Source of the DNA: Sabellastarte sp. h YS-2021 | Taxonomy: Eukaryota; Annelida; Polychaeta; Sabellida; Sabellidae | Assembly (NCBI GenBank): GCA_964017235.1 | Contig: OZ024940.1 | Coordinates: 27,398,573-27,462,572, forward strand | Direction of reading: 5' to 3' | Length of the DNA: 64,000 nucleotides | Shown: positions 32,091 to 57,421 of the stretch, one piece after another | How the letters are laid out: each line of letters starts with the position of its first letter | Position numbering within the stretch: the stretch's first letter is position 1 | The notes under the pieces: model-generated | What the model was told of the DNA's origin: nothing | Database searches by the model: none | What the model saw: the letters and a program-made list of their open reading frames with translations, nothing else | Program-made: the position numbers and the translations under genes

Positions 32091-32754
32091 GTCTTGGTAG
32101 AAAGTTCAATCTGGTAGAATTTCAAATTCTACCGTAGAAAGTCCAATTGGAGTTTCTACCGGTAGAAAGTCCAATCTATGATATTTGGATATTGCCCTGG
32201 GGTCCGAAATCTAATAACCTTTCCGATATTCCAATATTATAGAAAATGTTTTACTCTAACACAGATTTAACATACTCAAACATGACAGAAACTGAAGTTT
32301 TCCATCTATTCCAAGAATTTGTATTTCATTTTTCAAGTGAAATCTGTAGTATGGACATTAGTAACTGATGTAAGGTTTAAATTCCTATAACAAGTGTTAT
32401 ACAAAGTACAGTTTTAGCCAAGTAAATTTTGACAGCAGTCACTTCATACATGACATTTAGTGGAGTAACTAGCACCTACAGCAGCATTTGTTTGTCACAA
32501 CTGTGCAGTTGGTCCCAGCATCTAAAGCTTGTAAGTACTCTTCCCGAGTTTTAGCATCATTATTAGATTTTGGACCCGAGGGCAATACCCAAAGCTCCTA
32601 GATTGGACTTTCTACCAGTAGAAACTCCAATTGGACTTTCTACCAGGTTTATCTTGGTGGAAAATAAAATTGCACTGTCTACTGGTAGAAACTCCAATTT
32701 GACTTTGTACCGGTAGAATTTAAAATTCTACCAGATTGGACTTTCTGCCAAGAC
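32091..32754. mobile_element. Foldback/MITE-like DNA element with long inverted repeats
   Basis: The left arm (32,091-32,217) begins GTCTTGGTAGAAAG and the right arm (about 32,560-32,754) ends CTTTCTGCCAAGAC. Read in opposite directions the arms match over about 125 bp with some substitutions, and the right arm holds an insertion of roughly 70 bp. The arms are built of a repeated palindromic module, GGTAGAAAGTCCAATTGG and its complement, so each arm is itself a chain of hairpins. It is flanked by ATATAT on the left and ATAT on the right, which may be a TA-rich target duplication. No coding capacity, so non-autonomous. Confidence 0.75.
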
Positions 32755-33625: not shown

Positions 33626-33696
33626 TCTTTCAATCTGTCAATGGGAGTTTTCGAGTATCTAATCTTAGGAAACTGAAGGATGATATTAAAACTGAA
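33626..33696 (+). CDS. Membrane-protein gene, internal exon A (71 nt)
   Basis: Preceded by a strong acceptor (a run of T then TTCAG) and followed by the donor GTGAGT. It starts with two bases of a split codon and gives 23 residues, FQSVNGSFRVSNLRKLKDD and four more, ending in phase 0. It joins in frame to the exon at 34,188. This is the first recognisable exon of the gene; the 5' part, including any signal peptide, is not found in the window. I do not recognise the family. The F..S..GSF pattern and its place in the ectodomain before a single transmembrane helix recall SEA-type domains, but that is only a suggestion. Confidence 0.55.
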
Positions 33697-34187: not shown

Positions 34188-34407
34188 TTTGAACTCAGTT
34201 TCTGCCCAAATGAAGAAAGCATCAAGTTTTGTGACGTCAGGAGCATGAGTGTTGACGTAGACACAGACACAGTCTCCTTCTCCATGGAAGTTCCAAACGA
34301 CCTGAATTTGAAGACTTTCTTTAATGAATGGTATAAAGCAGTGAAGGAAGGAACATTCAAATTGAATGGATACAAAATAGTTTCATCATCACTAAAATTG
34401 GGACCAT
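34188..34407 (+). CDS. Membrane-protein gene, exon B (220 nt), ectodomain
   Basis: The acceptor is CATTGACAG and the donor GTAAGT. It encodes 73 residues plus one base (phase 1). The sequence has two cysteines (FCPN and KFCD), a beta-strand-like VSFSMEVP, and an aromatic stretch LKTFFNEWYKAV, then ends near YKIVSSSLKLGP. It is likely extracellular because it precedes the transmembrane exon. It is followed after 21 bp of intron by the inverted end of the ribozyme satellite. No function assigned. Confidence 0.65.
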
Positions 34408-34428: not shown

Positions 34429-34476
34429 TCACCAGGGTTGTTCACATTTGGTAATATGATGATATGCCTTACACAA
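34429..34476 (-). repeat. 48-bp inverted terminal copy at the array start
   Basis: A perfect reverse complement of 35,731-35,778, the part of each satellite unit that spans the ribozyme cleavage site and ends CAACCCTGGTGA. It occurs once, at the left end of the array, 21 bp after the splice donor. Such an inverted piece of a terminal repeat at one end is known from Penelope-like elements; it could also be a terminal inverted repeat of a DNA transposon. Confidence 0.8.
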
Positions 34477-34760
34477 GACTCTAAAAAGTACAACACTCTA
34501 ATCCTGTTCACAGATTACAAAGCGTGAGCAGAGGTTGATGTGGAATACTGGAGATAATCATTCAACAGGCATTATACAAGTTATCTAATTTCTGTGCATT
34601 TCTGGTCTTAAATTCACACTCATAAGGCCAACCCCATTTTTGCTTTATTTGAATACATGCACATTAAGACAGATACACAGAGTATAATATGCAAATAGAG
34701 AACAAGCCCTATTTCATAGAAAATCACAAAATCAAATAGCCCATATAAGGCACTTTGGAA

Positions 34761-34827
34761 AAATTGTGATGTCATAATCATATGATGTCATCACATCATT
34801 ACATCACGTCAAATTACATCACAATTT
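34761..34827. repeat. Inverted repeat within each satellite unit
   Basis: 12-bp arms AAATTGTGATGT and ACATCACAATTT enclose a 43-base loop made of ATGATGTCAT/ATCACATCAT-type repeats. Present in all full units, absent from the short ones. It could form an RNA or DNA hairpin. Confidence 0.7.
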
Positions 34828-35587
34828 GTGTACCAGTTCACATTGTCTCCTTGACGAAGGCTGGTGACTAGTTTATAAATAATAAACATAGAAATGAAAA
34901 ACTAATAGTTTTATTGTGTCAAATAAAATCAATATATTACTTATAATATTGATAAACAATAAATATAATGAATAAAGACATTCCTATCATATTAAAATAA
35001 TAATATGTTAATGTTATTCCCATGTTATATTCTATACTTGTTAAATATAATGGCTGAGTTAACAATGTATAACTATCTTGTTTTTCTCAGTCTCATATGG
35101 CAACCAATGTCAGACAGTTCAGGAAGCCATCGGATTCCTGATAAAGACATATGATTTGTGCATATAAGCCTTAATAACATGCTCAATATAATGGGGGTGT
35201 TCTTTACCATCAGAAAGTGGATCTAACGCCCACATAATTACATATAATTATTGAACCAATTATATTGTGAACTTGCACCCCTAACAAACCATAATATATT
35301 TTTATGTAAAATGTAATTCTAACATATAACCAGTCCACATATTATGGTAAACACACCTGGGGTCTAAATGGTAATGTGTCAGTGGACGAATACAAAAACA
35401 TAAGACCACATGGTACCTAACCTTCCTAAGTCGTTAGGAGGCAATGGGTTTGAACGTTATATGAATCCCTCAGTCAGTCTGTTCACCCCTGTTGCTGATT
35501 GAGCCAAAAATTGATAATCAGCACTTTCCTGAACCCCTAACAATTCAAACAACTAAAATTGAATTTTAGGCAATTTTGCACCTCCTG

Positions 35588-35607
35588 TGCACCTGTGCAC
35601 AGGTGCA
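35588..35607. repeat. 20-bp perfect palindrome in satellite units
   Basis: TGCACCTGTGCACAGGTGCA, followed closely by ACCGGT and CAATTG. Unit 2 has lost eight bases here, which accounts for its 1,483-bp length. Short units start at the right edge of this block. Confidence 0.8.
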
Positions 35608-35661
35608 AAAAACCGGTGCAATTGCACATTTAAAAAGGTACTTCAGGGGGGTAGTTACCAC

Positions 35662-35745
35662 ATATCTCCAGCCTCTGATGAGAAAGTTCAGTGTTTAAAC
35701 TTTCGAAACACAATAAACATATAAAATATATTGTGTAAGGCATAT
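35662..35745 (+). ncRNA. Hammerhead ribozyme, type I, satellite unit 1
   Basis: Self-cleaving RNA with all core elements. CUGAUGA is at 35,675-35,681. Stem II is GAAAGTT/AACTTTC, 7 bp, with a 9-base loop. GAAA is at 35,705-35,708. Stem III is CACAATA/TATTGTG, 7 bp. The cleavage triplet GUA ends at 35,737. Stem I pairs GCCT (35,671-35,674) with AGGC (35,738-35,741) and, past a CTCCA bulge, ATAT with ATAT; such a stem I bulge is where natural hammerheads contact loop II. The fold is by eye, but both universal core strings, three paired stems and an NUH site are present together. Confidence 0.88.
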
Positions 35746-35813
35746 CATCATATTACCAAATGTGAACAACCCTGGTGACTTACAAAGTTAATGCACTTAA
35801 TTTTATTTTTTAG

Positions 35814-35836
35814 TTTTAACTTTGAGTGTGAGATTT
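35814..35836 (+). other. Splice-like microexon in each satellite unit
   Basis: A T-rich acceptor (TTTTATTTTTTAG) is followed 23 bases later by a strong donor GTAAGTGC. The same pair recurs in every unit, with the enclosed piece varying from 17 to 23 bases (17 in units 4, 5 and 7; 21 in unit 6; 19 after short unit c). Because lengths are not multiples of three, inclusion would often shift the frame, so I read it as a cryptic or decoy site rather than coding sequence. Confidence 0.35.
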
Positions 35837-37144
35837 GTAAGTGCAAGTCACTCTACTCTGGTTACCGCCAAATCTAGGCCTGCTCTACAAACTGAGGGCC
35901 TAGAAGTGGGATCTGCATATACACCTATGCCTAGGCCTAGGATGGCAGTTCTCCACGCCAGAATGGTGTCTCTAAAAAGTACAACACTCTAATCCTGTTC
36001 ACAGATTACAAAGCGTGAGCAGAGGTTGATGTGGAATACTGGAGATAATCATTCAACAGGCATTATACAAGTTATCTAATTTCTGTGCATTTCTGGTCTT
36101 AAATTCACACTCATAAGGCCAACCCCATTTTTGCTTTATTTGAATACATGCACATTAAGACAGATACACAGAGTATAATATGCAAATAGAGAACAAGCCC
36201 TATTTCATAGAAAATCACAAAATCAAATAGCCCATATAAGGCACGTTTGAAAAATTGTGATGTCATAATCATATGATGTCATCACATCATTACATCACGT
36301 CAAATTACATCACAATTTGTGTACCAGTTCACATTGTCTCCTTGACGAAGGCTGGTGACTAGTTTATAAATAATAAACATAGGAATGAAAAACTAATAGT
36401 TTTATTGTGTCAAATAAAATCAATATATTAATTATAATATTGATAAACAATAAATATAATGAATAAAGACATTCCTATCATATTAAAATAATAATATGTT
36501 AATGTTATTCCCATGTTATATTCTATACTTGTTAAATATAATGGCTGAGTTAACAATGTATAACTGTCTTGTTTTTCTCAGTCTCATATGGCAACCAATG
36601 TCAGACAGTTCAGGAAGCCAACAGATTCCTGATAAAGACATATGATTTGTGCATATAAGCCTTAATAACATGCTCAATATAATGGGGGTGTTCTTTACCA
36701 TCAGAAAGTGGATCTAGCGCCCACATAATTACATATAATTATTGAACCAATTATATTGTGAACTTGCACCCCTAACAAACCATAATATATTTTTATGTAA
36801 AATGTAATTCTAACATATAACCAGTCCACATATTATGGTAAACACACCTGGGGTCTAAATGGTAACGTGTCAGTGGACGAATACAAAAACATAAGACCAC
36901 ATGGTACCTAACCTTCCTAAGTCGTTAGGAGGCAATGGGTTTGAATGTTATATGAATCCCTCAGTCAGTCTGTTCACCCCTGTTGCTGATTGAGCCAAAA
37001 ATTGATAATCAGCACTTTCCTGAACCCCTAACAATTCAAACAACTAAAATTGAATTTTAGGCAATTTTGCACCTCCTGTGCACAGGTGCAAAAAACCGGT
37101 GCAATTGCACATTTAAAAAGGTACTTCAGGGGGGTAGTTACCAC

Positions 37145-37228
37145 ATATCTCCAGCCTCTGATGAGAAAGTTCAGTGTTTAAACTTTCGAAACACAATAAA
37201 CATATAAAATATATTGTGTAAGGCATAT
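37145..37228 (+). ncRNA. Hammerhead ribozyme, unit 2
   Basis: Intact core and stems; predicted cleavage after 37,220, 1,483 nt from the previous site. Confidence 0.88.
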
Positions 37229-38635
37229 CATCATATTACCAAATGTGAACAACCCTGGTGACTTACAAAGTTAATGCACTTAATTTTATTTTTTAGTTTT
37301 AACTGTGAGTGTGAGATTTGTAAGTGCAAGTCACTCTACTCTGGTTACCGCCAAATCTAGGCCTGCTCTACAAATTGAGGGCCTAGAAGTGGGATCTGCA
37401 TATACACCTATGCCTAGGCCTAGGATGGCAGTTCTCCACGCCAGAATGGTGTCTCTAAAAAGTACAACACTCTAATCCGGTTCACAGATTACAAAGCGTG
37501 AGCAGAGGTTGATGTGGAATACTGGAGATAATCATTCAACAGGCATTATACAAGTTATCTAATTTCTGTGCATTTCTGGTCTTAAATTCACACTCATAAG
37601 GCCAACCCCATTTTTGCTTTATTTGAATACATGCACATTAAGACAGATACACAGAGTATAATATGCAAATAGAGAACAAGCCCTATTCCATAGAAAATCA
37701 CAAAATCAAATAGCCCATATAAGGCACTTTTGAAAAATTGTGATGTCATAATCATATGATGTCATCACATCATTACATCACGTCAAATTACATCACAATT
37801 TGTCTACCAGTTCACATTGTCTCCTTGACGAAGGCTGGTGACTAGTTTATAAATAATAAACATAGGAATGAAAAACTAATAGTTTTATTGTGTCAAATAA
37901 AATCAATATATTACTTATAATATTGATAAACAATAAATATAATGAATAAAGACATTCCTATCATATTAAAATAATAATATGTTAATGTTATTCCCATGTT
38001 ATATTCTATACTTGTTAAATATAATGGCTGAGTTAACAATGTATAACTATCTTGTTTTTCTCAGTCTCATATGGCAACCAATGTCAGACAGTTCAGGAAG
38101 CCATCAGATTCCTGATAAAGACATATGATTTGTGCATATAAGCCTTAATAACATGCTCAATATAATGGGGGTGTTCTTTACCATCAGAAAGTGGATCTAA
38201 CGCCCACATAATTACATATAATTATTGTACCAATTATATTGTGAACTTGCACCCCTAACAAACCATAATATATTTTTATGTAAAATGTAATTCTAACATA
38301 TAACCAGTCCAAATATTATGGTAAACACACCTGGGGTCTAAACGGTAACATGTCAATGAACAAATACAAAAACATAAGACCACATGGTACCTAACCTTCC
38401 TAAGTCGTTAGGAGGCAATGGGTTTGAATGTTATATGAATCCCTCAGTCAGTCTGTTCACCCCTGTTGCTGATTGAGCCAAAAATTGATAATCAGCACTT
38501 TCCTGAACCCCTAACAATTCAAACAACTAAAATTGAATTTTAGGCAATTTTGCACCTCCTGTGCACCTGTGCACAGGTGCAAAAAACCGGTGCAATTGCA
38601 CATTTAAAAAGGTACTTCAGGGGGGTAGTTACCAC

Positions 38636-38719
38636 ATATCTCCAGCCTCTGATGAGAAAGTTCAGTGTTTAAACTTTCGAAACACAATAAACATATAAAA
38701 TATATTGTGTAAGGCATAT
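38636..38719 (+). ncRNA. Hammerhead ribozyme, unit 3
   Basis: Intact; predicted cleavage after 38,711. Confidence 0.88.
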
Positions 38720-40125
38720 CATCATATTACCAAATGTGAACAACCCTGGTGACTTACAAAGTTAATGCACTTAATTTTATTTTTTAGTTTTAACTGTGAG
38801 TGTGAGATTTGTAAGTGCAAGTCACTCTACTCTGGTTACCGCCGAATCTAGGCCTGCTCTACAAACTGAGGGCCTAGAAGTGGGATCTGCATATACACCT
38901 ATGCCTAGGCCTAGGATGGCAGTTCTCCACGCTGGAATGGTGTCTCTAAAAAGTACAACACTCTAATCCTGTTCACAGATTACAAAGCGTGAGCAGAGGT
39001 TGATGTGGAATACTGGAGATAATCATTCAACAGGCATTATACAAGTTATCTAATTTCTGTGCATTTCTGGTCTTAAATTCACACTCATAAGGCCAACCCC
39101 ATTTTTGCTTTATTTGAATACATGCACATTAAGACAGGTACACAGAGTATAATATGCAAATAGAGAACAAGCCCTATTTCATAGAAAATCACAAAATCAA
39201 ATAGCCCATATAAGGCACTTTTGAAAAATTGTGATGTCATAATCATATGATGTCATCACATCATTACATCACGTCAAATTACATCACAATTTGTGTACCA
39301 GTTCACATTGTCTCTTTGACGAAGGCTAGTGACTAGTTTATAAATAATAAACATAGGAATGAAAAACTAATAGTTTTATTGTGTCAAATAAAATCAATAT
39401 ATTACTTATAATATTGATAAACAATAAATATAATGAATAAAGACATTCCTATCATATTAAAATAATAATATGTTAATGTTATTCCCATGTTATATTCTAT
39501 GCTTGTTAAATATAATGACTGAGTTAACAATGTATAACTATCTTGTTTTTCTCAGTCTCATATGGCAACCAATGTCAGACAGTTCAGGAAGCCATCAGAT
39601 TCCTGATAAAGACATATGATTTGTGCATATAAGCCTTAATAACATGCTCAATATAATGGGGGTGTTCTTTACCATCAGAAAGTGGATCTAACACCCACAT
39701 AATTACATATAATTATTGAACCAATTATATTGTGAACTTGCACCCCTAACAAACCATAATATATTTTATGTAAAATGTAATTCTAACATATAACCAGTCC
39801 ACATATTATGGTAAACACACCTGGGGTCTAAATGGTAACGTGTCAGTGGACGAATACAAAAACATAAGACCACATGGTACCTAACCTTCCTAAGTCGTTA
39901 GGAGGCAATGGGTTTGAATGTTATATGAATCCCTCAGTCAATCTGTTCACCCCTGTTGCTGATTGAGCCAAAAATTGATAATCAGCACTTTCCTGAACCC
40001 CTAACAATTCAAACAACTAAAATTGAATTTTAGGCAATTTTGCACCTCCTGTGCACCTGTGCACAGGTGCAAAAAACCGGTGCAATTGCACATTTAAAAA
40101 GGTACTTCAGGGGAGTAGTTACCAC

Positions 40126-40209
40126 ATATCTCCAGCCTCTGATGAGAAAGTTCAGTGTTTAAACTTTCGACGCACAATAAACATATAAAATATATTGTGT
40201 AAGGCATAT
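40126..40209 (+). ncRNA. Hammerhead ribozyme, unit 4, core mutated
   Basis: The catalytic GAAA is GACG here, changing A14 and A15.1, both needed for activity. All stems are kept. Predicted inactive. Confidence 0.82.
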
Positions 40210-40606
40210 CATCATATTACCAAATGTGAACAACCCTGGTGACTTACAAAGTTAATGCACTTAATTTTATTTTTTAGTTTTAACTGTGAGATTTGTAAGT
40301 GCAAGTCACTCTACTCTGGTTACCGCCAAATCTAGGCCTGCTCTACAAATTGAGGGCCTAGAAGTGGGATCTGCATATACACCTATGCCTAGGCCTAGGA
40401 TGGCAGTTCTCCACGCCAGAATGGTGTCTATAAAAAGTACAACACTCTAATCCTGTTCACAGATTACAAAGCGTGAGCAGAGGTTGATGTGGAATACTGG
40501 AGATAATCATTCAACAGGCATTATACAAGTTATCTAATTTCTGTGCCGTTCAAAAAACCGGTGCAATTGCACATTTAAAAAGGTACTTCAGGGGGGTAGT
40601 TACCAC

Positions 40607-40690
40607 ATATCTCCAGCCTCTGATGAGAAAGTTCAGTGTTTAAACTTTCGAAACACAATAAACATATAAAATATATTGTGTAAGGCATAT
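40607..40690 (+). ncRNA. Hammerhead ribozyme, short unit a
   Basis: Intact core; predicted cleavage after 40,682, 481 nt from the (dead) site of unit 4. Confidence 0.88.
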
Positions 40691-42096
40691 CATCATATTA
40701 CCAAATGTGAACAACCCTGGTGACTTACAAAGTTAATGCACTTAATTTTATTTTTTAGTTTTAACTTTGAGTGTGAGATTTGTAAGTGCAAGTCACTCTA
40801 CTCTGGTTACCGCCGAATCTAGGCCTGCTCTACAAACTGAGGGCCTAGAAGTGGGATCTGCATATACACCTATGCCTAGGCCTAGGATGGCAGTTCTCCA
40901 CGCTGGAATGGTGTCTCTAAAAAGTACAACACTCTAATCCTGTTCACAGATTACAAAGCGTGAGCAGAGGTTGATGTGGAATACTGGAGATAATCATTCA
41001 ACAGGCATTATACAAGTTATCTAATTTCTGTGCATTTCTGGTCTTAAATTCACACTCATAAGGCCAACCCCATTTTTGCTTTATTTGAATACATGCACAT
41101 TAAGACAGATACACAGAGTATAATATGCAAATAGAGAACAAGCCCTATTTCATAGAAAATCACAAAATCAAATAGCCCATATAAGGCACTTTTGAAAAAT
41201 TGTGATGTCATAATCATATGATGTCATCACATCATTACATCACGTCAAATTACATCACAATTTGTGTACCAGTTCACATTGTCTCCTTGACGAAGGCTGG
41301 TGACTAGTTTATAAATAATAAACATAGGAATGAAAAACTAATAGTTTTATTGTATCAAATAAAATCAATATATTACTTATAATATTGATAAACAATAAAT
41401 ATAATGAATAAAGACATTCCTATCATATTAAAATAATAATATGTTAATGTTATTCCCATGTTATATTCTATACTTGTTAAATATAATGGCTGAGTTAACA
41501 ATGTATAACTATCTTGTTTTTCTCAGTCTCATATGGCAACCAATGTCAGACAGTTCAGGAAGCCATCAGATTCCTGATAAAGACATATGATTTGTGCATA
41601 TAAGCCTTAATAACATGCTCAATATAATGGGGGTGTTCTTTACCATCAGAAAGTGGATCTAACGCCCACATAATTACATATAATTATTGAACCAATTACA
41701 TTGTGAACTTGCACCCCTAACAAACCATAATATATTTTATGTAAAATGTAATTCTAACATATAACCAGTCCACATATTATGGTAAACACACCTGGGGTCT
41801 AAATGGTAACGTGTCAGTGGACGAATACAAAAACATAAGACCACATGGTACCTAACCTTCCTAAGTCGTTAGGAGGCAATGGGTTTGAATGTTATATGAA
41901 TCCCTCAGTCAATCTGTTCACCCCTGTTGCTGATTGAGCCAAAAATTGATAATCAGCACTTTCCTGAACCCCTAACAATTCAAACAACTAAAATTGAATT
42001 TTAGGCAATTTTGCACCTCCTGTGCACCTGTGCACAGGTGCAAAAAACCGGTGCAATTGCACATTTAAAAAGGTACTTCAGGGGAGTAGTTACCAC

Positions 42097-42180
42097 ATAT
42101 CTCCAGCCTCTGATGAGAAAGTTCAGTGTTTAAACTTTCGACGCACAATAAACATATAAAATATATTGTGTAAGGCATAT
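42097..42180 (+). ncRNA. Hammerhead ribozyme, unit 5, core mutated
   Basis: GACG in place of GAAA, as in unit 4. Predicted inactive. Confidence 0.82.
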
Positions 42181-42577
42181 CATCATATTACCAAATGTGA
42201 ACAACCCTGGTGACTTACAAAGTTAATGCACTTAATTTTATTTTTTAGTTTTAACTGTGAGATTTGTAAGTGCAAGTCACTCTACTCTGGTTACCGCCAA
42301 ATCTAGGCCTGCTCTACAAATTGAGGGCCTAGAAGTGGGATCTGCATATACACCTATGCCTAGGCCTAGGATGGCAGTTCTCCACGCCAGAATGGTGTCT
42401 ATAAAAAGTACAACACTCTAATCCTGTTCACAGATTACAAAGCGTGAGCAGAGGTTGATGTGGAATACTGGAGATAATCATTCAACAGGCATTATACAAG
42501 TTATCTAATTTCTGTGCCGTTCAAAAAACCGGTGCAATTGCACATTTAAAAAGGTACTTCAGGGGGGTAGTTACCAC

Positions 42578-42661
42578 ATATCTCCAGCCTCTGATGAGAA
42601 AGTTCAGTGTTTAAACTTTCGAAACACAATAAACATATAAAATATATTGTGTAAGGCATAT
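42578..42661 (+). ncRNA. Hammerhead ribozyme, short unit b
   Basis: Intact; predicted cleavage after 42,653. Confidence 0.88.
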
Positions 42662-44068
42662 CATCATATTACCAAATGTGAACAACCCTGGTGACTTACA
42701 AAGTTAATGCACTTAATTTTATTTTTTAGTTTTAACTTTGAGTGTGAGATTTGTAAGTGCAAGTCACTCTACTCTGGTTACCGCCGAATCTAGGCCTGCT
42801 CTACAAACTGAGGGCCTAGAAGTGGGATCTGCATATACACCTATGCCTAGGCCTAGGATGGCAGTTCTCCACGCTGGAATGGTGTCTCTAAAAAGTACAA
42901 CACTCTAATCCTGTTCACAGATTACAAAGCGTGAGCAGAGGTTGATGTGGAATACTGGAGATAATCATTCAACAGGCATTATACAAGTTATCTAATTTCT
43001 GTGCATTTCTGGTCTTAAATTCACACTCATAAGGCCAACCCCATTTTTGCTTTATTTGAATACATGCACATTAAGACAGATACACAGAGTATAATATGCA
43101 AATAGAGAACAAGCCCTATTTCATAGAAAATCACAAAATCAAATAGCCCATATAAGGCACTTTTGAAAAATTGTGATGTCATAATCATATGATGTCATCA
43201 CATCATTACATCACGTCAAATTACATCACAATTTGTGTACCAGTTCACATTGTCTCCTTGACGAAGGCTGGTGACTAGTTTATAAATAATAAACATAGGA
43301 ATGAAAAACTAATAGTTTTATTGTATCAAATAAAATCAATATATTACTTATAATATTGATAAACAATAAATATAATGAATAAAGACATTCCTATCATATT
43401 AAAATAATAATATGTTAATGTTATTCCCATGTTATATTCTATACTTGTTAAATATAATGGCTGAGTTAACAATGTATAACTATCTTGTTTTTCTCAGTCT
43501 CATATGGCAACCAATGTCAGACAGTTCAGGAAGCCATCAGATTCCTGATAAAGACATATGATTTGTGCATATAAGCCTTAATAACATGCTCAATATAATG
43601 GGGGTGTTCTTTACCATCAGAAAGTGGATCTAACGCCCACATAATTACATATAATTATTGAACCAATTACATTGTGAACTTGCACCCCTAACAAACCATA
43701 ATATATTTTATGTAAAATGTAATTCTAACATATAACCAGTCCACATATTATGGTAAACACACCTGGGGTCTAAATGGTAACGTGTCAGTGGACGAATACA
43801 AAAACATAAGACCACATGGTACCTAACCATCCTAAGTCGTTAGGAGGCAATGGGTTTGAATGTTATATGAATCCCTCAGTCAGTCTGTTCACCCCTGTTG
43901 CTGATTGAGCCAAAAATTGATAATCAGCACTTTCCTGAACCCCTAACAATTCAAACAACTAAAATTGAATTTTAGGCAATTTTGCAACTCCTCTGCACCT
44001 GTGCACAGGTGCAAAAAACCGGTGCAATTGCACATTTAAAAAGGTACTTCAGGGGGGGTAGTAACCAC

Positions 44069-44152
44069 ATATCTCCAGCCTCTGATGAGAAAGTTCAGTG
44101 TTTAAACTTTCGAAACACAATAAACATATAAAATATATTTTGTAAGGCATAT
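44069..44152 (+). ncRNA. Hammerhead ribozyme, unit 6, stem III weakened
   Basis: The GAAA core is kept, but the 3' strand of stem III reads TATTTTG, giving a C-U mismatch third from the core. Activity may be reduced. Confidence 0.82.
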
Positions 44153-44553
44153 CATCATATTACCAAATGTGAACAACCCTGGTGATTTACAAAGTTAATG
44201 CACTTAATTTTATTTTTTAGTTTTAACTGTGAGTGAGATTTGTAAGTGCAAGTCACTCTACTCTGGTTACCGCCAAATCTAGGCCTGCTCTACAAATTGA
44301 GGGCCTAGAAGTGGGATCTGCATATACACCTATGCCTAGGCCTAGGATGGCAGTTCTCCACGCCAGAATGGTGTCTCTAAAAAGTACAACACTCTAATCC
44401 TGTTCACAGATTACAAAGCGTGAGCAGAGGTTGATGTGGAATACTGGAGATAATCATTCAACAGGCATTATACAAGTTATCTAATTTCTGTACCGTTCAA
44501 AAAACCGGTGCAATTGCACATTTAAAAAGGTACTTCAGGGGGGTAGTTACCAC

Positions 44554-44637
44554 ATATCTCCAGCCTCTGATGAGAAAGTTCAGTGTTTAAACTTTCGAAA
44601 CACAATAAACATATAAAATATATTGTGTAAGGCATAT
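44554..44637 (+). ncRNA. Hammerhead ribozyme, short unit c
   Basis: Intact; predicted cleavage after 44,629. Confidence 0.88.
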
Positions 44638-46039
44638 CATCATATTACCAAATGTGAACAACCCTGGTGACTTACAAAGTTAATGCACTTAATTTTATTT
44701 TTTAGTTTTAACTGTGTGAGATTTGTAAGTGCAAGTCACTCTACTCTGGTTACCGCCGAATCTAGGCCTGCTCTACAAACTGAGGGCGTAGAAGTGGGAT
44801 CTGCATATACACCTATGCCTAGGCCTAGGATGGCAGTTCTCCACGCCAGAATGGTGTCTCTAAAAAGTACAACACTCTAATCCTGTTCACAGATTACAAA
44901 GCGTGAGCAGAGGTTGATGTGGAATACTGGAGATAATCATTCAACAGGCATTATACAAGTTATCTAATTTCTGTGCATTTCTGGTCTTAAATTCACACTC
45001 ATAAGGCCAACCCCATTTTTGCTTTATTTGAATACATGCACATTAAGACAGATACACAGAGTATAATATGCAAATAGAGAACAAGCCCTATTTCATAGAA
45101 AATCACAAAATCAAATAGCCCATATAAGGCACTTTTGAAAAATTATGATGTCATAATCATATGATGTCATCACATCATTACATCACGTCAAATTACATCA
45201 CAATTTGTGTACCAGTTCACATTGTCTCTTTGACGAAGGCTAGTGACTAGTTTATAAATAATAAACATAGGAATGAAAAACTAATAGTTTTATTGTGTCA
45301 AATAAAATCAATATATTACTTATAATATTGATAAACAATAAATATAATGAAAAAAGACATTCCTATCATATTAAAATAATAATATGTTAATGTTATTCCC
45401 ATGTTATATTCTATACTTGTTAAATATAATGGCTGAGTTAACAATGTATAACTATCTTGTTTTTCTCAGTCTCATATGGCAACCAATGTCAGACAGTTCA
45501 GGAAGCCATCAGATTCCTGATAAAGACATATGATTTGTGCATATAAGCCTTAATAACATGCTCAATATAATGGGGGTGTTCTTTACCGTCAGAAAGTGGA
45601 TCTAACGCCCACATAATTACATATAATTATTGAACCAATTATATTGTGAACTTGCACCCCTAACAAACCATAATATATTTTATGTAAAATGTAATTGTAA
45701 CATATATCCAGTCCACATATTATGGTAAACACACCTGGGGTCTAAATGGTAACGTGTCAGTGGACGAATACAAAAACATAAGACCACATGGTACCTAACC
45801 TTCCTAAGTCGTTAGGAGGCAATGGGTTTGAATGTTATATGAATCCCTCAGTCAGTCTGTTCACCCCTGTTGCTGATTGAGCCAAAAATTGATAATCAGC
45901 ACTTTCCTGAACCCCTAACAATTCAAACAACTAAAATTGAATTTTAGGCAATTTTGCACCTCCTGTGCACCAGTGCACAGGTGCAAAAAACCGGTGCAAT
46001 TGCACATTTAAAAAGGTACTTCAGGGGAGTAGTTACCAC

Positions 46040-46123
46040 ATATCTCCAGCCTCTGATGAGAAAGTTCAGTGTTTAAACTTTCGACGCACAATAAACATAT
46101 AAAATATATTGTGTAAGGCATAT
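46040..46123 (+). ncRNA. Hammerhead ribozyme, unit 7, core mutated
   Basis: GACG in place of GAAA. Predicted inactive. Confidence 0.82.
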
Positions 46124-46520
46124 CATCATATTACCAAATGTGAACAACCCTGGTGACTTACAAAGTTAATGCACTTAATTTTATTTTTTAGTTTTAACTG
46201 TGAGATTTGTAAGTGCAAGTCACTCTACTCTGGTTACCGCCAAATCTAGGCCTGCTCTACAAATTGAGGGCCTAGAAGTGGGATCTGCATATACACCTAT
46301 GCCTAGGCCTAGGATGGCAGTTCTCCACGCCAGAATGGTGTCTATAAAAAGTACAACACTCTAATCCTGTTCACAGATTACAAAGCGTGAGCAGAGGTTG
46401 ATGTGGAATACTGGAGATAATCATTCAACAGGCATTATACAAGTTATCTAATTTCTGTGCGGTTCAAAAAACCGGTGCAATTGCACATTTAAAAAGGTAC
46501 TTCAGGGGGGTAGTTACCAC

Positions 46521-46604
46521 ATATCTCCAGCCTCTGATGAGAAAGTTCAGTGTTTAAACTTTCGAAACACAATAAACATATAAAATATATTGTGTAAGGC
46601 ATAT
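46521..46604 (+). ncRNA. Hammerhead ribozyme, short unit d
   Basis: Intact; predicted cleavage after 46,596. Confidence 0.88.
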
Positions 46605-48010
46605 CATCATATTACCAAATGTGAACAACCCTGGTGACTTACAAAGTTAATGCACTTAATTTTATTTTTTAGTTTTAACTTTGAGTGTGAGATTTGTAAG
46701 TGCAAGTCACTCTACTCTGGTTACCGCCGAATCTAGGCCTGCTCTACAAACTGAGGGCCTAGAAGTGGGATCTGCATATACACCTATGCCTAGGCCTAGG
46801 ATGGCAGTTCTCCACGCTGGAATGGTGTCTCTAAAAAGTACAACACTCTAATCCTGTTCACAGATTACAAAGCGTGAGCAGAGGTTGATGTGGAATACTG
46901 GAGATAATCATTCAACAGGCATTATACAAGTTATCTAATTTCTGTGCATTTCTGGTCTTAAATTCACACTCATAAGGCCAACCCCATTTTTGCTTTATTT
47001 GAATACATGCACATTAAGACAGATACACAGAGTATAATATGCAAATAGAGAACAAGCCCTATTTCATAGAAAATCACAAAATCAAATAGCCCATATAAGG
47101 CACTTTTGAAAAATTGTGATGTCATAATCATATGATGTCATCACATCATTACATCACGTCAAATTACATCACAATTTGTGTACCAGTTCACATTGTCTCC
47201 TTGACGAAGGCTGGTGACTAGTTTATAAATAATAAACATAGGAATGAAAAACTAATAGCTTGATTGTGTCAAATAAAATCAATATATTACTTATAATATT
47301 GATAAACAATAAATATAATGAATAAAGACATTCCTATCATATTAAAATAATAATATGTTAATGTTATTCCCATGTTATATTCTATACTTGTTAAATATAA
47401 TGGCTGAGTTAACAATGTATAACTATCTTGTTTTTCTCAGTCTCATATGGCAACCAATGTCAGACAGTTCAGAAAGCCATCAGATTCCTGATAAAGACAT
47501 ATGATTTGTGCATATAAGCCTTAATAACATGCTCAATATAATGGGGGTGTTCTTTACCATCAGAAAGTGGATCTAACGCCCACATAATTACATATAATTA
47601 TTGAACCAATTATATTGTGAACTTGCACCCCTAACAAACCATAATATATTTTATGTAAAATGTAATTCTAACATATAACCAGTCCACATATTATGGTAAA
47701 CACACCTGGGGTCTAAATGGTAACGTGTCAGTGGACGAATACAAAAACATAAGACCACATGGTACCTAACCTTCCTAAGTCGTTAGGAGGCAATGGGTTT
47801 GAATGTTATATGAATCCCTCAGTCAGTCTGTTCACCCCTGTTGCTGATTGAGCCAAAAATTGATAATCAGCACTTTCCTGAACCCCTAACAATTCAAACA
47901 ACTAAAATTGAATTTTAGGCAATTTTGCACCTCCTGTGCACCTGTGCACAGGTGCAAAAAACCGGTGCAATTGCACATTTAAAAAGGTACTTCAGGGGGG
48001 TAGTTACCAC

Positions 48011-48094
48011 ATATTTCCAGCCTCTGATGAGAAAGTTCAGTGTTTAAACTTTCGAAACACAATAAACATATAAAATATATTGTGTAAGGCATAT
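48011..48094 (+). ncRNA. Hammerhead ribozyme, unit 8
   Basis: Intact core; the stem I bulge is TTCCA rather than CTCCA, which could alter the loop-loop contact. Confidence 0.87.
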
Positions 48095-49501
48095 CATCAT
48101 ATTACCAAATGTGAACAACCCTGGTGACTTACAAAGTTAATGCACTTAATTTTATTTTTTAGTTTTAACTGTGAGTGTGAGATTTGTAAGTGCAAGTCAC
48201 TCTACTCTGGTTACCGCCAAATCTAGGCCTGCTCTACAAATTGAGGGCCTAGAAGTGGGATCTGCATATACACCTATGCCTATGCCTAGGATGGCAGTTC
48301 TCCACGCCAGAATGGTGTCTCTAAAAAGTACAACACTCTAATCCTGTTCACAGATTACAAAGCGTGAGCAGAGGTTGATGTGGAATACTGGAGATAATCA
48401 TTCAACAGGCATTATACAAGTTATCTAATTTCTGTGCATTTCTGGTCTTAAATTCACACTCATAAGGCCAACCCCATTTTTGCTTTATTTGAATACATGC
48501 ACATTAAGACAGATACACAGAGTATAATATGCAAATAGAGAACAAGCCCTATTCCATAGAAAATCACAAAATCAAATAGCCCAAATAAGGCACTTTTGAA
48601 AAATTGTGATGTCATAATCATATGATGTCATCACATCATTACATCACGTCAAATTACATCACAATTTGTGTACCAGTTCACATTGTCTCCTTGACAAAGG
48701 CTGGTGACTAGTTTATAAATAATAAACATAGGAATGAAAAACTAATAGTTTTATTGTGTCAAATAAAATCAATATATTACTTATAATATTGATAAACAAT
48801 AAATATAATGAAAAAAGACATTCCTATCATATTAAAATAATAATATGTTAATGTTATTCCCATGTTATATTCTATACTTGTTAAATATAATGGCTGAGTT
48901 AACAATGTATAACTATCTTGTTTTTCTCAGTCTCATATGGCAACCAATGTCAGACAGTTCAGGAAGCCATCAGTTTCCTGATAAAGACATATGATTTGTG
49001 CATATAAGCCTTAATAACATGCTCAATATAATGGGGGTGTTCTTTACCATCAGAAAGTGTATCTAACGCCCACATAATTACATATAATTATTGAACCAAT
49101 TATATTGCGAACTTGCACCCCTAACAAACCATAATATATTTTTATGTAAAATGTAATTCTAACATATAACCAGTCCACATATTATGGTAAACACACCTGG
49201 GGTCTAAATGGTAACGTGTCAGTGGACGAATACAAAAACATAAGACCACATGGTACCTAACCTTCCTAAGTCGTTAGGAGGCAATGGGTTTGAATGTTAT
49301 ATGAATCCCTCAGTCAGTCTGTTCACCCCTGTTGCTGATTGAGCCAAAAATTGATAATCAGCACTTTCCTGAACCCCTAACAATTCAAACAACTAAAATT
49401 GAATTTTAGGCAATTTTGCACCTCCTGTGCACCTGTGCACGGGTGCAAAAAACCGGTGCAATTGCACATTTAAAAAGGTACTTCAGGGGGGTAGTTACCA
49501 C

Positions 49502-49585
49502 ATATCTCCAGCCTCTGATGAGAAAGTTCAGTGTTTAAACTTTCGAAACACAATAAACATATAAAATATATTGTGTAAGGCATAT
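49502..49585 (+). ncRNA. Hammerhead ribozyme, unit 9
   Basis: Intact; predicted cleavage after 49,577, 1,491 nt from the previous site. Confidence 0.88.
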
Positions 49586-50992
49586 CATCATATTACCAAA
49601 TGTGAACAACCCTGGTGACTTACAAAGTTAATGCACTTAATTTTATTTTTTAGTTTTAACTGTGAGTGTGAGATTTGTAAGTGTAAGTCACTCTACTCTG
49701 GTTACCGCCGAATCTAGGCCTGCTCTACAAACTGAGGGCCTAGAAGTGGGATCTGCATATACACCTATGCCTAGGCCTAGGATGGCAGTTCTCCACGCCA
49801 GAATGGTGTCTCTAAAAAGTACAACACTCTAATCCTGTTCACAGATTACAAAGCGTGAGCAGAGGTTGATGTGGAATACTGGAGATAATCATTCAACAGG
49901 CATTATACAAGTTATCTAATTTCTGTGCATTTCTGGTCTTAAATTCACACTCATAAGGCCAACCCCATTTTTGCTTTATTTGAATACATGCACATTAAGA
50001 CAGATACACAGAGTATAATATGCAAATAGAGAACAAGCCCTATTTCATAGAAAATCACAAAATCAAATAGCCCATATAAGGCACTTTTGAAAAATTGTGA
50101 TGTCATAATCATATGATGTCATCACATCATTACATCACGTCAAATTACATCACAATTTGTGTACCAGTTCACATTGTCTCCTTGACGAAGGCTGGTGACC
50201 AGTTTATAAATAATAAACATAGGAATGAAAAACTAATAGTTTTATTGTGTCAAATAAAATCAATATATTACTTATAATATTGATAAACAATAAATATAAT
50301 GAATAAAGACATTCCTATCATATTAAAATAATAATATGTTAATGTTATTCCCATGTTATATTCTATACTTGTTAAATATAATGGCTGAGTTAACAATGTA
50401 TAACTATCTTGTTTTTCTCAGTCTCATATGGCAACCAATGTCAGACAGTTCAGGAAGCCATCAGATTCCTGATAAAGACATATGATTTGTGCATATAAGC
50501 CTTAATAACATGCTCAATATAATGGGGGTGTTCTTTACCATCAGAAAGTGGATCTAACGCCCACATAATTACATATAATTATTGAACCAATTATATTGTG
50601 AACTTGCACCCCTAACAAACCATAATATATTTTTATGTAAAATGTAATTCTAACATATAACCAGTCCACATATTATGGTAAACACACCTGGGGTCTAAAT
50701 GGTAACGTGTCAGTGGACGAATACAAAAACATAAGACCACATGGTACCTAACCTTCCTAAGTCGTTAGGAGGCAATGGGTTTGAATGTTATATGAATCCC
50801 TCAGTCAGTCTGTTCACCCCTGTTGCTGATTGAGCCAAAAATTGATAATCAGCACTTTCCTGAACCCCTAACAATTCAAACAACTAAAATTGAATTTTAG
50901 GCAATTTTGCACCTCCTGTGCACCTGTGCACGGGTGCAAAAAACCGGTGCAATTGCACATTTAAAAAGGTACTTCAGGGGGGTAGTTACCAC

Positions 50993-51076
50993 ATATCTCC
51001 AGCCTCTGATGAGAAAGTTCAGTGTTTAAACTTTCGAAACACAATAAACATATAAAATATATTGTGTAAGGCATAT
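50993..51076 (+). ncRNA. Hammerhead ribozyme, unit 10
   Basis: Intact; predicted cleavage after 51,068. Confidence 0.88.
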
Positions 51077-52483
51077 CATCATATTACCAAATGTGAACAA
51101 CCCTGGTGACTTACAAAGTTAATGCACTTAATTTTATTTTTTAGTTTTAACTGTGAGTGTGAGATTTGTAAGTGCAAGTCACTCTACTCTGGTTACCGCC
51201 GAATCTAGGCCTGCTCTACAAACTGAGGGCCTAGAAGTGGGATCTGCATATACACCTATGCCTATGCCTAGGATGGCAGTTCTCCACGCCAGAATGGTGT
51301 CTCTAAAAAGTACAACACTCTAATCCTGTTCACAGATTACAAAGCGTGAGCAGAGGTTGATGTGGAATACTGGAGATAATCATTCAACAGGCATTATACA
51401 AGTTATCTAATTTCTGTGCATTTCTGGTCTTAAATTCACACTCATAAGGCCAACCCCATTTTTGCTTTATTTGAATACATGCACATTAAGACAGATACAC
51501 AGAGTATAATATGCAAATAGAGAACAAGCCCTATTTCATAGAAAATCACAAAATCAAATAGCCCATATAAGGCACTTTTGAAAAATTGTGATGTCATAAT
51601 CATATGATGTCATCACATCATTACATCACGTCAAATTACATCACAATTTGTGTACCAGTTCACATTGTCTCCTTGACGAAGGCTGGTGACCAGTTTATAA
51701 ATAATAAACATAGGAATGAAAAACTAATAGTTTTATTGTGTCAAATAAAATCAATATATTACTTATAATATTGATAAACAATAAATATAATGAATAAAGA
51801 CATTCCTATCATATTAAAATAATAATATGTTAATGTTATTCCCATGTTATATTCTATACTTGTTAAATATAATGGCTGAGTTAACAATGTATAACTATCT
51901 TGTTTTTCTCAGTCTCATATGGCAACCAATGTCAGACAGTTCAGGAAGCCATCAGATTCCTGATAAAGACATATGATTTGTGCATATAAGCCTTAATAAC
52001 ATGCTCAATATAATGGGGGTGTTCTTTACCATCAGAAAGTGGATCTAACGCCCACATAATTACATATAATTATTGAACCAATTATATTGTGAACTTGCAC
52101 CCCTAACAAACCATAATATATTTTTATGTAAAATGTAATTCTAACATATAACCAGTCCACATATTATGGTAAACACACCTGGGGTCTAAATGGTAACGTG
52201 TCAGTGGACGAATACAAAAACATAAGACCACATGGTACCTAACCTTCCTAAGTCGTTAGGAGGCAATGGGTTTGAATGTTATATGAATCCCTCAGTCAGT
52301 CTGTTCACCCCTGTTGCTGATTGAGCCAAAAATTGATAATCAGCACTTTCCTGAACCCCTAACAATTCAAACAACTAAAATTGAATTTTAGGCAATTTTG
52401 CACCTCCTGTGCACCTGTGCACGGGTGCAAAAAACCGGTGCAATTGCACATTTAAAAAGGTACTTCAGGGGGGTAGTTACCAC

Positions 52484-52567
52484 ATATCTCCAGCCTCTGA
52501 TGAGAAAGTTCAGTGTTTAAACTTTCGAAACACAATAAACATATAAAATATATTGTGTAAGGCATAT
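52484..52567 (+). ncRNA. Hammerhead ribozyme, unit 11
   Basis: Intact; predicted cleavage after 52,559. Last complete ribozyme of the array. Confidence 0.88.
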
Positions 52568-53974
52568 CATCATATTACCAAATGTGAACAACCCTGGTGA
52601 CTTACAAAGTTAATGCACTTAATTTTATTTTTTAGTTTTAACTGTGAGTGTGAGATTTGTAAGTGCAAGTCACTCTACTCTGGTTACCGCCGAATCTAGG
52701 CCTGCTCTACAAACTGAGGGCCTAGAAGTGGGATCTGCATATACACCTATGCCTATGCCTAGGATGGCAGTTCTCCACGCCAGAATGGTGTCTCTAAAAA
52801 GTACAACACTCTAATCCTGTTCACAGATTACAAAGCGTGAGCAGAGGTTGATGTGGAATACTGGAGATAATCATTCAACAGGCATTATACAAGTTATCTA
52901 ATTTCTGTGCATTTCTGGTCTTAAATTCACACTCATAAGGCCAACCCCATTTTTGCTTTATTTGAATACATGCACATTAAGACAGATACACAGAGTATAA
53001 TATGCAAATAGAGAACAAGCCCTATTTCATAGAAAATCACAAAATCAAATAGCCCATATAAGGCACTTTTGAAAAATTGTGATGTCATAATCATATGATG
53101 TCATCACATCATTACATCACGTCAAATTACATCACAATTTGTGTACCAGTTCACATTGTCTCCTTGACGAAGGCTGGTGACCAGTTTATAAATAATAAAC
53201 ATAGGAATGAAAAACTAATAGTTTTATTGTGTCAAATAAAATCAATATATTACTTATAATATTGATAAACAATAAATATAATGAATAAAGACATTCCTAT
53301 CATATTAAAATAATAATATGTTAATGTTATTCCCATGTTATATTCTATACTTGTTAAATATAATGGCTGAGTTAACAATGTATAACTATCTTGTTTTTCT
53401 CAGTCTCATATGGCAACCAATGTCAGACAGTTCAGGAAGCCATCAGATTCCTGATAAAGACATATGATTTGTGCATATAAGCCTTAATAACATGCTCAAT
53501 ATAATGGGGGTGTTCTTTACCATCAGAAAGTGGATCTAACGCCCACATAATTACATATAATTATTGAACCAATTATATTGTGAACTTGCACCCCTAACAA
53601 ACCATAATATATTTTTATGTAAAATGTAATTCTAACATATAACCAGTCCACATATTATGGTAAACACACCTGGGGTCTAAATGGTAACGTGTCAGTGGAC
53701 GAATACAAAAACATAAGACCACATGGTACCTAACCTTCCTAAGTCGTTAGGAGGCAATGGGTTTGAATGTTATATGAATCCCTCAGTCAGTCTGTTCACC
53801 CCTGTTGCTGATTGAGCCAAAAATTGATAATCAGCACTTTCCTGAACCCCTAACAATTCAAACAACTAAAATTGAATTTTAGGCAATTTTGCACCTCCTG
53901 TGCACCTGTGCACAGGTGCAAAAAACCGGTGCAATTGCACATTTAAAAAGGTACTTCAGGGGGGTAGTTACCAC

Positions 53975-54010
53975 ATATCTCCAGCCTCTGATGAGAAAGT
54001 TCAGTGTTTA
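53975..54010 (+). pseudogene. Truncated hammerhead ribozyme at the array end
   Basis: The array breaks off inside the loop of stem II (CAGTGTTTA), so GAAA, stem III and the cleavage site are missing. Confidence 0.85.
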
Positions 54011-54652: not shown

Positions 54653-54667
54653 ATTCAGCCAGTTCAG
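54653..54667 (+). CDS. Membrane-protein gene, 15-nt microexon
   Basis: ATTCAGCCAGTTCAG between TATTCCAG and GTGAGT. Together with the T left by exon B and the next exon's AT it encodes YSASSD, a short Ser-rich juxtamembrane linker, keeping phase 1 on both sides. Both splice sites are strong and the reading frame agrees, but so small an exon needs transcript support. Confidence 0.5.
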
Positions 54668-56558
54668 GTGAGTTTTCTGCATTAATAATAACAATAATAA
54701 TAAGATGCACTCAGAGAGAGCAAAACGCTCGACTCCATGTGACCAGTCTCTCAAGTGATATAAAGTATTGTAAGGAAGACAAATAAAACCAAACATGTAA
54801 AGTAATCTCAAGTAGAAAGCTAAAGTGATTAAAAATACATTGAAATGGGACCTCTGAAAAATCATGATTTTTTTTGTATCCAAAATAAGATCCAGATCTT
54901 TCTTTTAGTAATTCTTCCTTCAGTCAGGTCCTACCCACAAATTTTTAAATAAGATCTGTTCATTAGTTCTGGAGTAATCTAAACACACACACACCCACCC
55001 ACCCCCAGACACCCCCCCAAAACCCCCCAGACAAATAGACAATTAAACAATCAGCACATGAAAACATAAACTGCTGGTGGAGGTAAAAATATTGCATGAA
55101 GGTCACTTCTTGATGAAAATCACACATGGTAATTTTTTGTAATGGACTGTCAAGGAATTGAAAGAAAAAAAGAGAAAATAAAACAGAAATAGTAATTAAT
55201 AAAAATGATGAATATACCACCTCCCTCTTTATTATGTTTATGTCAATTTCAAGACATAAAATGAGAAGAAATATTTTTACTTAAACACAGCAAGTATCAC
55301 AAGCTATGTTTGTGACATCACAATGACAGTTGCATCAATGAGTAATGACATCATCAGAAAGGAAAGTATTGATTTTTTACTTATGTGATGAAGAGAAGCA
55401 ATTTCACTGTGTATTCCCAATTAAAAATAAGAAAAACTCTCTCCTGGCTTTAATTTTCAAACAAATTACACCAAATTTAGAAGAATCTATCTGTACCCCA
55501 TGAAATACCTTCCCACCAAATTTGAAATTGATTGATGTTATAGTTTTTGAGTTATAAGGGTAAAACGGTGCACAGACAAAGAAGCAGATTTCACTGTAAA
55601 AGCCCAATTAAAAATACAAAACACTCTCACCTGGCTTTAATTTTCACACAAATTACACCAAATTTGGAAGAATTTGTCTGTACCCCATAAAATACACGCC
55701 CACCAAATTTGAGCTCGATTGGTGTTATAGTTTTTGAGTTATAAGGGCAAAACAGTGCACAGACAGACAGACAGACGGACAAACAGAAACAAACTGATCA
55801 CAATACCCCTCTCCTATCGTCAAGCGTTAATAGTAATCATTATAACAAGGCATGATAGATACAGTAAGCAACACTATTGTTGTAGTTGGATATACAATAA
55901 ATTGTCAGAAAATTGTCCCTGCTGCACCTTTCATTTCCAACTGAGGCAAGTTAAGAACTCCAAATTCTCAAAATATGTCACAGAACAGTTGTGACAATGT
56001 GGCTGTAGTGAAATAAATCAGATATACCCCATTACAAAAATCCTCAGAGATCACATGCATGCTGCTTACCCCCACAAATTGACAAATTTCTCCGTTTGGC
56101 ACAAACTAATGCAAGCGATGAATTCAACATCTAGCTAACCAGAATCACTGAGTTTTGTTATGTGCATGATAAGTAACATGTGTGCCAATTTGAGACAGAT
56201 GAGGCAGAAATCACACTACTGGCCCTGAAGAAGTAGTGTCAAAGGTAACTAGTCAGTGTTTATTGTGTAAAGTATGGTTTGTATGGTACTTTGTATGCCT
56301 GTAGCAATGTTTAATTTCGTCAAAATAAATTAATATTAAATAATCTTGTGCTGTTTGAGTTATTGTGTTCCAGTTTTGTTTAACAGTGTTATTTAAAGTC
56401 AGTGCTGCAAGTCTGTTTATTGAGATTTTAAAATGTAAGATGAAGGTCTAAGACAAGGATCTATATTCACATCTTTTTGTTTATTCAGCACAACCTCTCT
56501 AATGTTCAACAGACTCTCTTTATTTACACTTATGTCCCTGTTTTATCTCTCTTTACAG
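54668..56558 (+). other. Intron 3 (1.9 kb)
   Basis: GTGAGT to CTTTACAG. Holds an AC/C-rich tract (about 54,981-55,030), a tandem duplication at 55,395-55,766 and a CAGA microsatellite (about 55,758-55,775). No coding sequence seen. Confidence 0.5.
55395..55766. repeat. Two diverged tandem copies of a ~186-bp sequence
   Basis: Copies begin GAAGCAATTTCACTG (55,395) and GAAGCAGATTTCACTG (55,581). Both contain TTACACCAAATTT, CTGTACCCCAT and TATAGTTTTTGAGTTATAAG, and end before ACAGACA repeats. Sequence of this style is a common dispersed repeat tail in marine invertebrates. Confidence 0.75.
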
Positions 56559-56675
56559 ATCTTTCAACATCAGACATCATTGGAATTGGCATTGGAGTGT
56601 CCCTGTTTACAATAACTCTTATATCAGCTGTTGTTCTTGTAACTGTTGTGCAGAAGACAATAAAAGGCAATGAAG
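56559..56675 (+). CDS. Membrane-protein gene, transmembrane exon (117 nt)
   Basis: The acceptor is CTCTCTTTACAG. It encodes LSTSD, then a hydrophobic helix (IIGIGIGVSLFTITLISAVV and on to LVTVV), then QKTIKGNE. The positive residues after the helix suit a type I protein with its C-terminus in the cytoplasm. The donor appears to be GC: AATGAAG|GCAAGT, a perfect match to the GC-AG intron consensus. It joins the next exon in an open frame. Using the nearby GT four bases on (AA|GTGTAA) would end the protein after about seven more residues. Confidence 0.7.
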
Positions 56676-57312: not shown

Positions 57313-57421
57313 GAAAAAAACGTTTGGATGACAGCTATTCTGAATCAGGTTACTATGGAAAATATGGTAGCAATAGGATGTATGGTGGCAGCTGGAACAC
57401 TAACCAGATTGTGTACCCGAG
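57313..57421 (+). CDS. Membrane-protein gene, cytoplasmic-tail exon (109 nt)
   Basis: Encodes KKRLDDSYSESGYYGKYGSN and on to NQIVYP, a basic stretch then a Tyr/Gly/Ser-rich tail; the tyrosines could be phosphorylation sites. The donor is GAG|GTAAGA. A second frame is also open through this exon but has unremarkable composition. Confidence 0.65.

Follow-up and report, generated by a model that had tools for sequence, protein, structure and literature searches.

A 20-kb intronic array of hammerhead-bearing units in Sabellastarte sp., a probable local expansion of a non-autonomous Penelope-type retrozyme

Introduction

Type I hammerhead ribozymes are carried in animals by tandem repeats with units of 150-450 bp, and the retrozymes of animals are expressed as circular RNAs, molecules which in general measure 150 to over 1000 nt (PMC7229834; this and the other papers cited by accession are used in excerpt). 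According to a curation guide, retrozymes may depend on Penelope-like elements (PLEs) (PMC8969392), whose own hammerheads are minimal and lack stem III. The subject of this report is a tandem array at positions 34429-54010 of a 64,000-nucleotide stretch of DNA (the window, numbered from its first letter) of the annelid Sabellastarte sp. h YS-2021 (assembly GCA_964017235.1, contig OZ024940.1, positions 27,398,573 to 27,462,572 of the forward strand). Probably the array arose when a non-autonomous Penelope-type retrozyme was expanded locally; the unit of this element is non-coding, measures 1.49 kb and has a type I hammerhead at its boundary. What the sequence shows directly is the motif, the higher-order repeats, the conservation of the hammerhead and, in dispersed copies, arms with two end positions, target-site duplications and starts at the cleavage site.

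In work with a purified PLE protein in vitro, both strands were cut and extended, and reverse transcription began inside the RNA at two nearby sites, without difference between strands; mutation of the hammerhead left insertion unchanged, and the excerpted account saw no reads that stop at the cut site (PMC11167929). PLE insertions can possess head-to-head inverted pseudo-long terminal repeats (pLTRs), one of which may have a 31-bp tail, and duplications of 8-10 bp; PLEs are also able to mobilise other sequence in trans (PMC3846280). The insertion junctions of the present element bear on the role of the hammerhead in PLEs and retrozymes: they are countable and could tell whether ribozyme-made ends are template ends and whether each strand has its own start site.

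Hammerhead motifs of the array

The core CTGATGA occurs 16 times within the array, always on the + strand. Fifteen of these cores belong to complete hammerheads, while the 16th (53988) is truncated, ending within the stem II loop with identity stopping at 54010 (judged by eye). Spacing between hammerheads is 1483-1491 bp or 481-486 bp, in agreement with a preliminary description of this DNA, which had reported 15 complete type I hammerheads at 1.49-kb or 0.48-kb intervals. Eleven copies are intact; three have GAAA changed to GACG (cores 40139, 42110 and 46053, with hammerhead starts 40135, 42106 and 46049) and in one (core 44082) a G to T change makes a mismatch in stem III.

The intact copies (n=11) have in common a proximal stem I of 4 bp (GCCU/AGGC) and the core CUGAUGA; their stem II is 7 bp long and closed by a 9-nt loop, GAAA comes next, stem III (8 bp including the pair A15.1-U16.1) has a 13-nt loop, and the cleavage site GUA/A is of the NUH type. 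They thereby possess the core and stems of a type I hammerhead, these being the CUGANGA and GAAA core, three stems with II and III closed, and an NUH site. The core, the 7-bp stem II, the GAAA or its mutant and the GUA site had all been described correctly; the stem III given as 7 bp becomes 8 bp when A15.1-U16.1 is counted, and of the stem I with an internal bulge the 4-bp proximal stem stands, the fold beyond it, on which putative contacts between stem I and loop II depend, being unsettled. The minimum free energy fold of 35630-35775 holds the exact hammerhead three-way junction, although the region taken whole is not unusually stable (z -1.58, with 13 of 200 shuffles folding equally well or better). 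Across six copies folded at five context lengths, stems II and III have a mean probability mostly of at least 0.8, the exceptions being copy 44082 and some windows near 40139 and 40620, and stem I has a probability from 0.00 to 0.80.

A strict descriptor of the motif gave 11 matches on the + strand of the window and none on the - strand, and 12 Mb of sequence simulated to the same dinucleotide composition contained none. As all array copies stem from one ancestral motif, the 11 matches count as one event, not eleven. At the sequence level the hammerheads are genuine; catalysis is what they would be expected to perform, and RNA 5′ ends at AGGCAUAUC are the expected signature of such cleavage.

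No hammerhead was matched by Rfam in the window, neither at the gathering threshold nor up to E 10. At the gathering threshold Rfam called a hammerhead at one of 14 phage loci, all 14 of which have descriptor-matching hammerheads, and because the other 13 were also missed Rfam was rejected as arbiter. Two covariance models were built from phage hammerheads only: R1, from 15 of them, and R2, from 7 phage rows with a different stem III sequence (one misaligned row was left out of the phage alignment). R1 matches exactly the 15 complete copies, with E-values of 2.3e-5 to 2.7e-5 for the intact 11 and 0.0078-0.038 for the remaining four, a match favoured by the fact that its training set was fetched by a pattern having CGAAACACAA in common with the window. 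With R2 the top 11 matches are the 11 intact copies (E 0.027-0.046), the next match lies at 1.1 and the GACG copies reach only E 6.7. The covariance-model hit that had been looked for in the preliminary description is thus given by the phage-trained R1 and R2 and not by the Rfam type I model. As for the phages themselves, a number of IMG/VR contigs (L018, L040, L057, L015 and others) have several hammerheads each, with five of type I in L040 and four in L057, and nearly all phage copies are missed by Rfam at its gathering threshold.

Dispersed copies in the genome

The genome (1.79 Gb, 647 contigs) was searched with the unit, giving 118 matches; the sample analysed here consists of the best-scoring copies at 37 loci (39 of 1,100 candidates were scored). 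The dispersed copies for which the preliminary description had proposed a genome-wide search do exist in the same genome. The 37 regions were mapped against a tandem of the unit, with numbering from the cleavage site. Related copies were counted as separate, and position windows were set after the data had been seen.

Insertions consist of one arm at 16 loci and of two arms at 21; the arms read outward, and paired arms are mutually inverted. Among 58 outer ends (the counts of ends and starts exclude one piece of L074, its first, which lies 2.8 kb away), 23 lie at unit positions 60-85 (~78), 23 at 385-410 (~404) and 12 elsewhere. One end of each kind is found in 13 of the 21 two-armed insertions, two ends alike in none and at least one end elsewhere in 8; wherever both ends are at preferred sites, ~78 is therefore paired with ~404 (13/13). 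Target-site duplications of at least 9 bp flank 15 of 36 loci (L106 being left out), as against 1 of 1,260 mismatched flank pairs. By eye, no A-tail was seen at the insertion ends in the junction sequences.

Starts of the arms were also plotted on the unit. Nine of 70 fall in a 15-nt window round the cleavage site (within ~10 nt), where a uniform distribution would place 0.7; the binomial p is 3.9e-8 if starts are uniform, for a window chosen after the fact. In the raw junctions an arm of each of L088, L099 and L101 begins at unit 1 and one of L074 at 1491, and in all four the upstream hammerhead sequence is missing past the junction. The other 61 starts lie away from the cleavage site. Close to the first end site, at 60-100, there are seven (p 0.003), as if two complementary DNAs (cDNAs) had met on one RNA. 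There is also a second cluster at unit 1370-1384 (1370, 1377, 1382, 1384 and 1384; examples being L072, L074, L078 and L100), which is close to two palindromes of the unit (1342-1361 and 1370-1381).

Many arms run across the cleavage site, the longest reaching 2,224 nt (L070), which implies that uncleaved multimers or circles have also served as templates. At L088 a piece starting at unit 1 and a piece ending at unit 78 have ~6 kb of other sequence between them; if this is a single insertion, one uncut hammerhead was retained in its template. Two candidates for an autonomous element were rejected: the 6-kb middle of L088, which has no open reading frame (ORF) over 133 aa, and a 79% relative at C1:13564292 (L108), with no ORF over 124 aa nearby; domains were not searched in either.

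The hammerhead is well conserved in the dispersed copies. CUGAUGA is unchanged in all 37 copies spanning it (26 loci), and the 11 core columns of these copies hold 5 changes in 407 cells. Mismatch is 1.9% over the 71-nt hammerhead and 4.6% over the unit and, when paired by locus, is lower in the hammerhead at 24 of 26 loci (Wilcoxon p 1.1e-5), although these are not 26 independent tests because the copies have common ancestry.

Organisation of the array

The array is made up of the following features:
34429-34476, - strand: inverted arm remnant of 48 bp at the left end of the array, unit 1485-1491 plus 1-41 reversed
34479-35737, + strand: first unit, incomplete (alignment)
35671-35741, + strand: hammerhead 1, intact, predicted cut at 35737/35738 (descriptor, R1 and R2 models, fold)
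35738-40201, + strand: three 1.49-kb units (35738-37220, 37221-38711, 38712-40201)
40202-48086, + strand: higher-order repeat of 1.97 kb in four copies, made up of a 0.48-kb and then a 1.49-kb unit
44078-44148, + strand: hammerhead with the stem III mismatch, G to T (R1 model match)
48087-52559, + strand: three more 1.49-kb units, with intact hammerheads starting at 49511, 51002 and 52493
52560-54010, + strand: last unit, which breaks off inside the truncated 16th hammerhead (53984-54010), in the stem II loop

The array had been described from 34429 on as a satellite in which every unit carries a hammerhead; at its left end, 34429-34476 is an inverted piece and not a direct unit. To this piece blastn matches unit 1-41 (34469-34429) at 100%, and it is similar to the inverted arms found in dispersed copies. 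Of the hammerheads in the block 35738-40201, those at 37154 and 38645 are intact and that at 40135 is a GACG mutant. Long units measure 1,483-1,491 bp and short units 481-485 bp (40202-40682, 42173-42653, 44145-44629 and 46116-46596), the latter being deletion derivatives of the long unit, as all four have a common deletion of ~1 kb with a four-base filler. The higher-order repeat recurs in register four times at spacings of 1971, 1971, 1972 and 1971 (anchors 40077 to 47962). Among the ten complete long units (neither the four short units nor the two at the ends were used) the mean difference is 1.0%, which together with the in-register repeat points to recent unequal exchange at the DNA level. 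The hammerhead preceding each 0.48-kb unit is mutated, so RNAs of 0.48 kb are not expected; an RNA cut at the intact copies alone would measure 1.49 or 1.97 kb.

The array is AT-rich, with a GC content below 50%, and non-coding, with no ORF of at least 70 aa between 34455 and 54088. No RNA polymerase III boxes were found in the unit with loose patterns. A promoter common to the unit and to a U2 array also located in the window (see below) was considered and rejected, as the two do not match at E <= 10. Exact pieces of the unit were absent from IMG/VR, and the one piece tried against GTDB contigs was absent there too.

Proposed mechanism and rival explanations

Catalysis, a PLE enzyme and the order of steps would fit together as follows. 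Transcription would run over tandem units, and the hammerhead would cut part of the RNA between unit 1491 and 1. A reverse transcriptase acting in trans, most likely from a PLE, would cut both strands of the target, and cDNA would begin inside the RNA at a different point for each side of the target, ~78 for the one and ~404 for the other. Each cDNA would head for the 5′ end of the RNA; its stop could be the end made by the ribozyme, a place near the other start site or some other point, and joining of the two cDNAs would give a target-site duplication and arms inverted to each other. Here a single insertion, along with its inverted-arm remnant, would then have been amplified by unequal exchange to the 20-kb intronic array in sense orientation. 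Spread through RNA, as proposed in the preliminary description, is supported by the dispersed copies with their duplications, two preferred ends and arm starts at the cleavage site. Its processed monomers are not upheld as the sole template, given the arms that cross the cleavage site and the starts elsewhere, and the 20-kb array itself, with its low divergence and higher-order repeat, is better ascribed to unequal exchange than to RNA monomers. It could reasonably, if tentatively, be proposed further that the dispersed copies are a genomic record of in vivo hammerhead cleavage during retrotransposition, with two obligatory starts on the RNA, one per strand, and run-off at the ribozyme-made 5′ end.

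A number of observations weigh against these proposals. Arm starts are not uniform, the fullest other 15-nt window holding 5, and windows were picked post hoc; 21 of 36 loci have no 9-bp duplication. In the dispersed copies 34 of 1,491 unit windows, including some that overlap the hammerhead, match it in conservation, and within the array the hammerhead is no more conserved than the rest (variable columns 3/70 as against 54/1,420). The start sites of the PLE studied in vitro are close together (tail 30-40 bp) with no strand difference, whereas here they are ~326 nt apart, and that PLE inserted with its hammerhead mutated and, in the excerpted account, without RNA ends at the cut site (PMC11167929). 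The 8-bp stem III also differs from PLE hammerheads, which have none.

The nearest rival is the retrozyme in the sense of Cervera and de la Peña, in which a host RNA ligase closes the hammerhead-released monomers into circles that are then reverse-transcribed. A ring template would explain arms that pass the unit boundary, animal retrozymes are expressed as circles (PMC7229834), and unit RNAs folded as circles exceed shuffles in structure. However, for the long unit this excess is present on both strands, uncut tandem RNA accounts equally for the boundary crossings, and arms starting at the cleavage site require a linear, cut template; the explanation is possible but somewhat doubtful. A SINE-like (short interspersed nuclear element) sequence mobilised by a long interspersed nuclear element (LINE) is unlikely. 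Twin priming yields inverted arms and target-site duplications, both of which are found here, and a LINE copy is present in the window, but twin priming would have to account for the fixed unit positions of both outer ends, of which 13 of the 21 two-armed insertions have one of either kind, and for ends at which no A-tail was seen by eye.

Spread at the DNA level as an ordinary satellite, with the hammerhead as a passenger, agrees with the higher-order repeats, the 1% divergence and the lack of constraint on the hammerhead inside the array, and is retained for local expansion. It was rejected for the dispersed copies, where duplications, fixed ends, inverted arms and a conserved hammerhead speak against it, and as a full explanation it is very unlikely. 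That the motif is a chance one and no ribozyme is involved has hardly any probability: Rfam is without a match and fold stability is ordinary, but this explanation was rejected on the empty descriptor search of simulated sequence, the matches of the phage-trained models and the conservation across dispersed copies, and arm starts at the predicted cut also oppose it.

Host gene and neighbouring features

The array occupies 19,582 bp of a 20,245-bp intron, starting 21 bp into it, with its hammerheads in sense. The host gene has six exons on the + strand, which form one open frame over five introns with GT-AG or GC-AG sites:
33626-33696 and 34188-34407, + strand: exons upstream of the array, open frame
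34408-54652, + strand: second intron, 20,245 bp, GTAAGT...CCAG
54653-54667, 56559-56675, 57313-57421 and 57708-57758, + strand: exons downstream of the array, open frame

The predicted host protein matched no Pfam family at cut-off and had no homologue at E <= 0.001. Another intron of the gene (56676-57312) has a GC 5′ splice site (GCAAGT).

On the - strand, window positions 81-26664 hold 28 tandem matches to U2 small nuclear RNA at a spacing of ~0.98 kb, 27 of them scoring 183.7-186.5 bits and the last (26483-26664), damaged at its 5′ end, 104.9 bits. A LINE copy follows on the same strand (~26640-30450; RVT_1 99.9 bits, zf-RVT 35.3 bits), and its 3′ end adjoins the last U2 copy, within U2 sequence (by eye). 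This placement recalls LINEs targeted to U2 such as Keno. The U2 array and the spliceosomal introns are in keeping with an animal genome. Inverted repeats rich in TCTACC/GGTAGA at ~32100-32740 (by eye) are perhaps a miniature DNA transposon, and two-copy tandem duplications lie at 55394-55765 (187 bp) and 62340-62561 (112 bp).

Comparison with known systems

A literature search of partial coverage found no publication on this element. Like the metazoan non-LTR retrozymes, it has a type I hammerhead in tandem, AT-rich, non-coding units with a GC content below 50%, but its 1.49-kb unit is, as had been remarked, unusually large beside their 150-450 bp, its stem III is longer, and the excerpts of PMC7229834 used here do not mention inverted arms having two fixed ends. 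With PLEs it shares tandem or partial-tandem copies, an inverted copy at one end, short target-site duplications and a hammerhead (PMC11167929, PMC3846280), as well as one end longer than the other, the excess being ~326 nt here and 30-40 bp in the PLE tail. Unlike PLEs it encodes no protein, and so lacks the ORF for reverse transcriptase and GIY-YIG endonuclease, and its hammerhead is not of the minimal form. The name non-autonomous Penelope-type retrozyme was chosen because the architecture is PLE-like, the hammerhead and tandem units are retrozyme-like and the curation guide links retrozymes to PLEs; as the unit exceeds the retrozyme size range and the PLE coding capacity is missing, strict membership of either group is not claimed.

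Tandem repeats with type I hammerheads are also known from the Schistosoma W-elements (PMC8490949) and Dolichopoda pDo500 (PMC2837043), though with shorter units (403 bp in W27.2, ~500 bp in pDo500), and the stem III of the W-element hammerhead candidates is extremely short. Location inside an intron of a protein-coding gene is shared with the hammerheads of amniote introns (PMC6155905) and of SmPoMuc (PMC2576457). Those introns have a single motif each, as described in the excerpts, whereas here 15 complete copies, 11 of them intact, lie in one intron, which makes the locus a natural test of splicing against a self-cleaving pre-mRNA.

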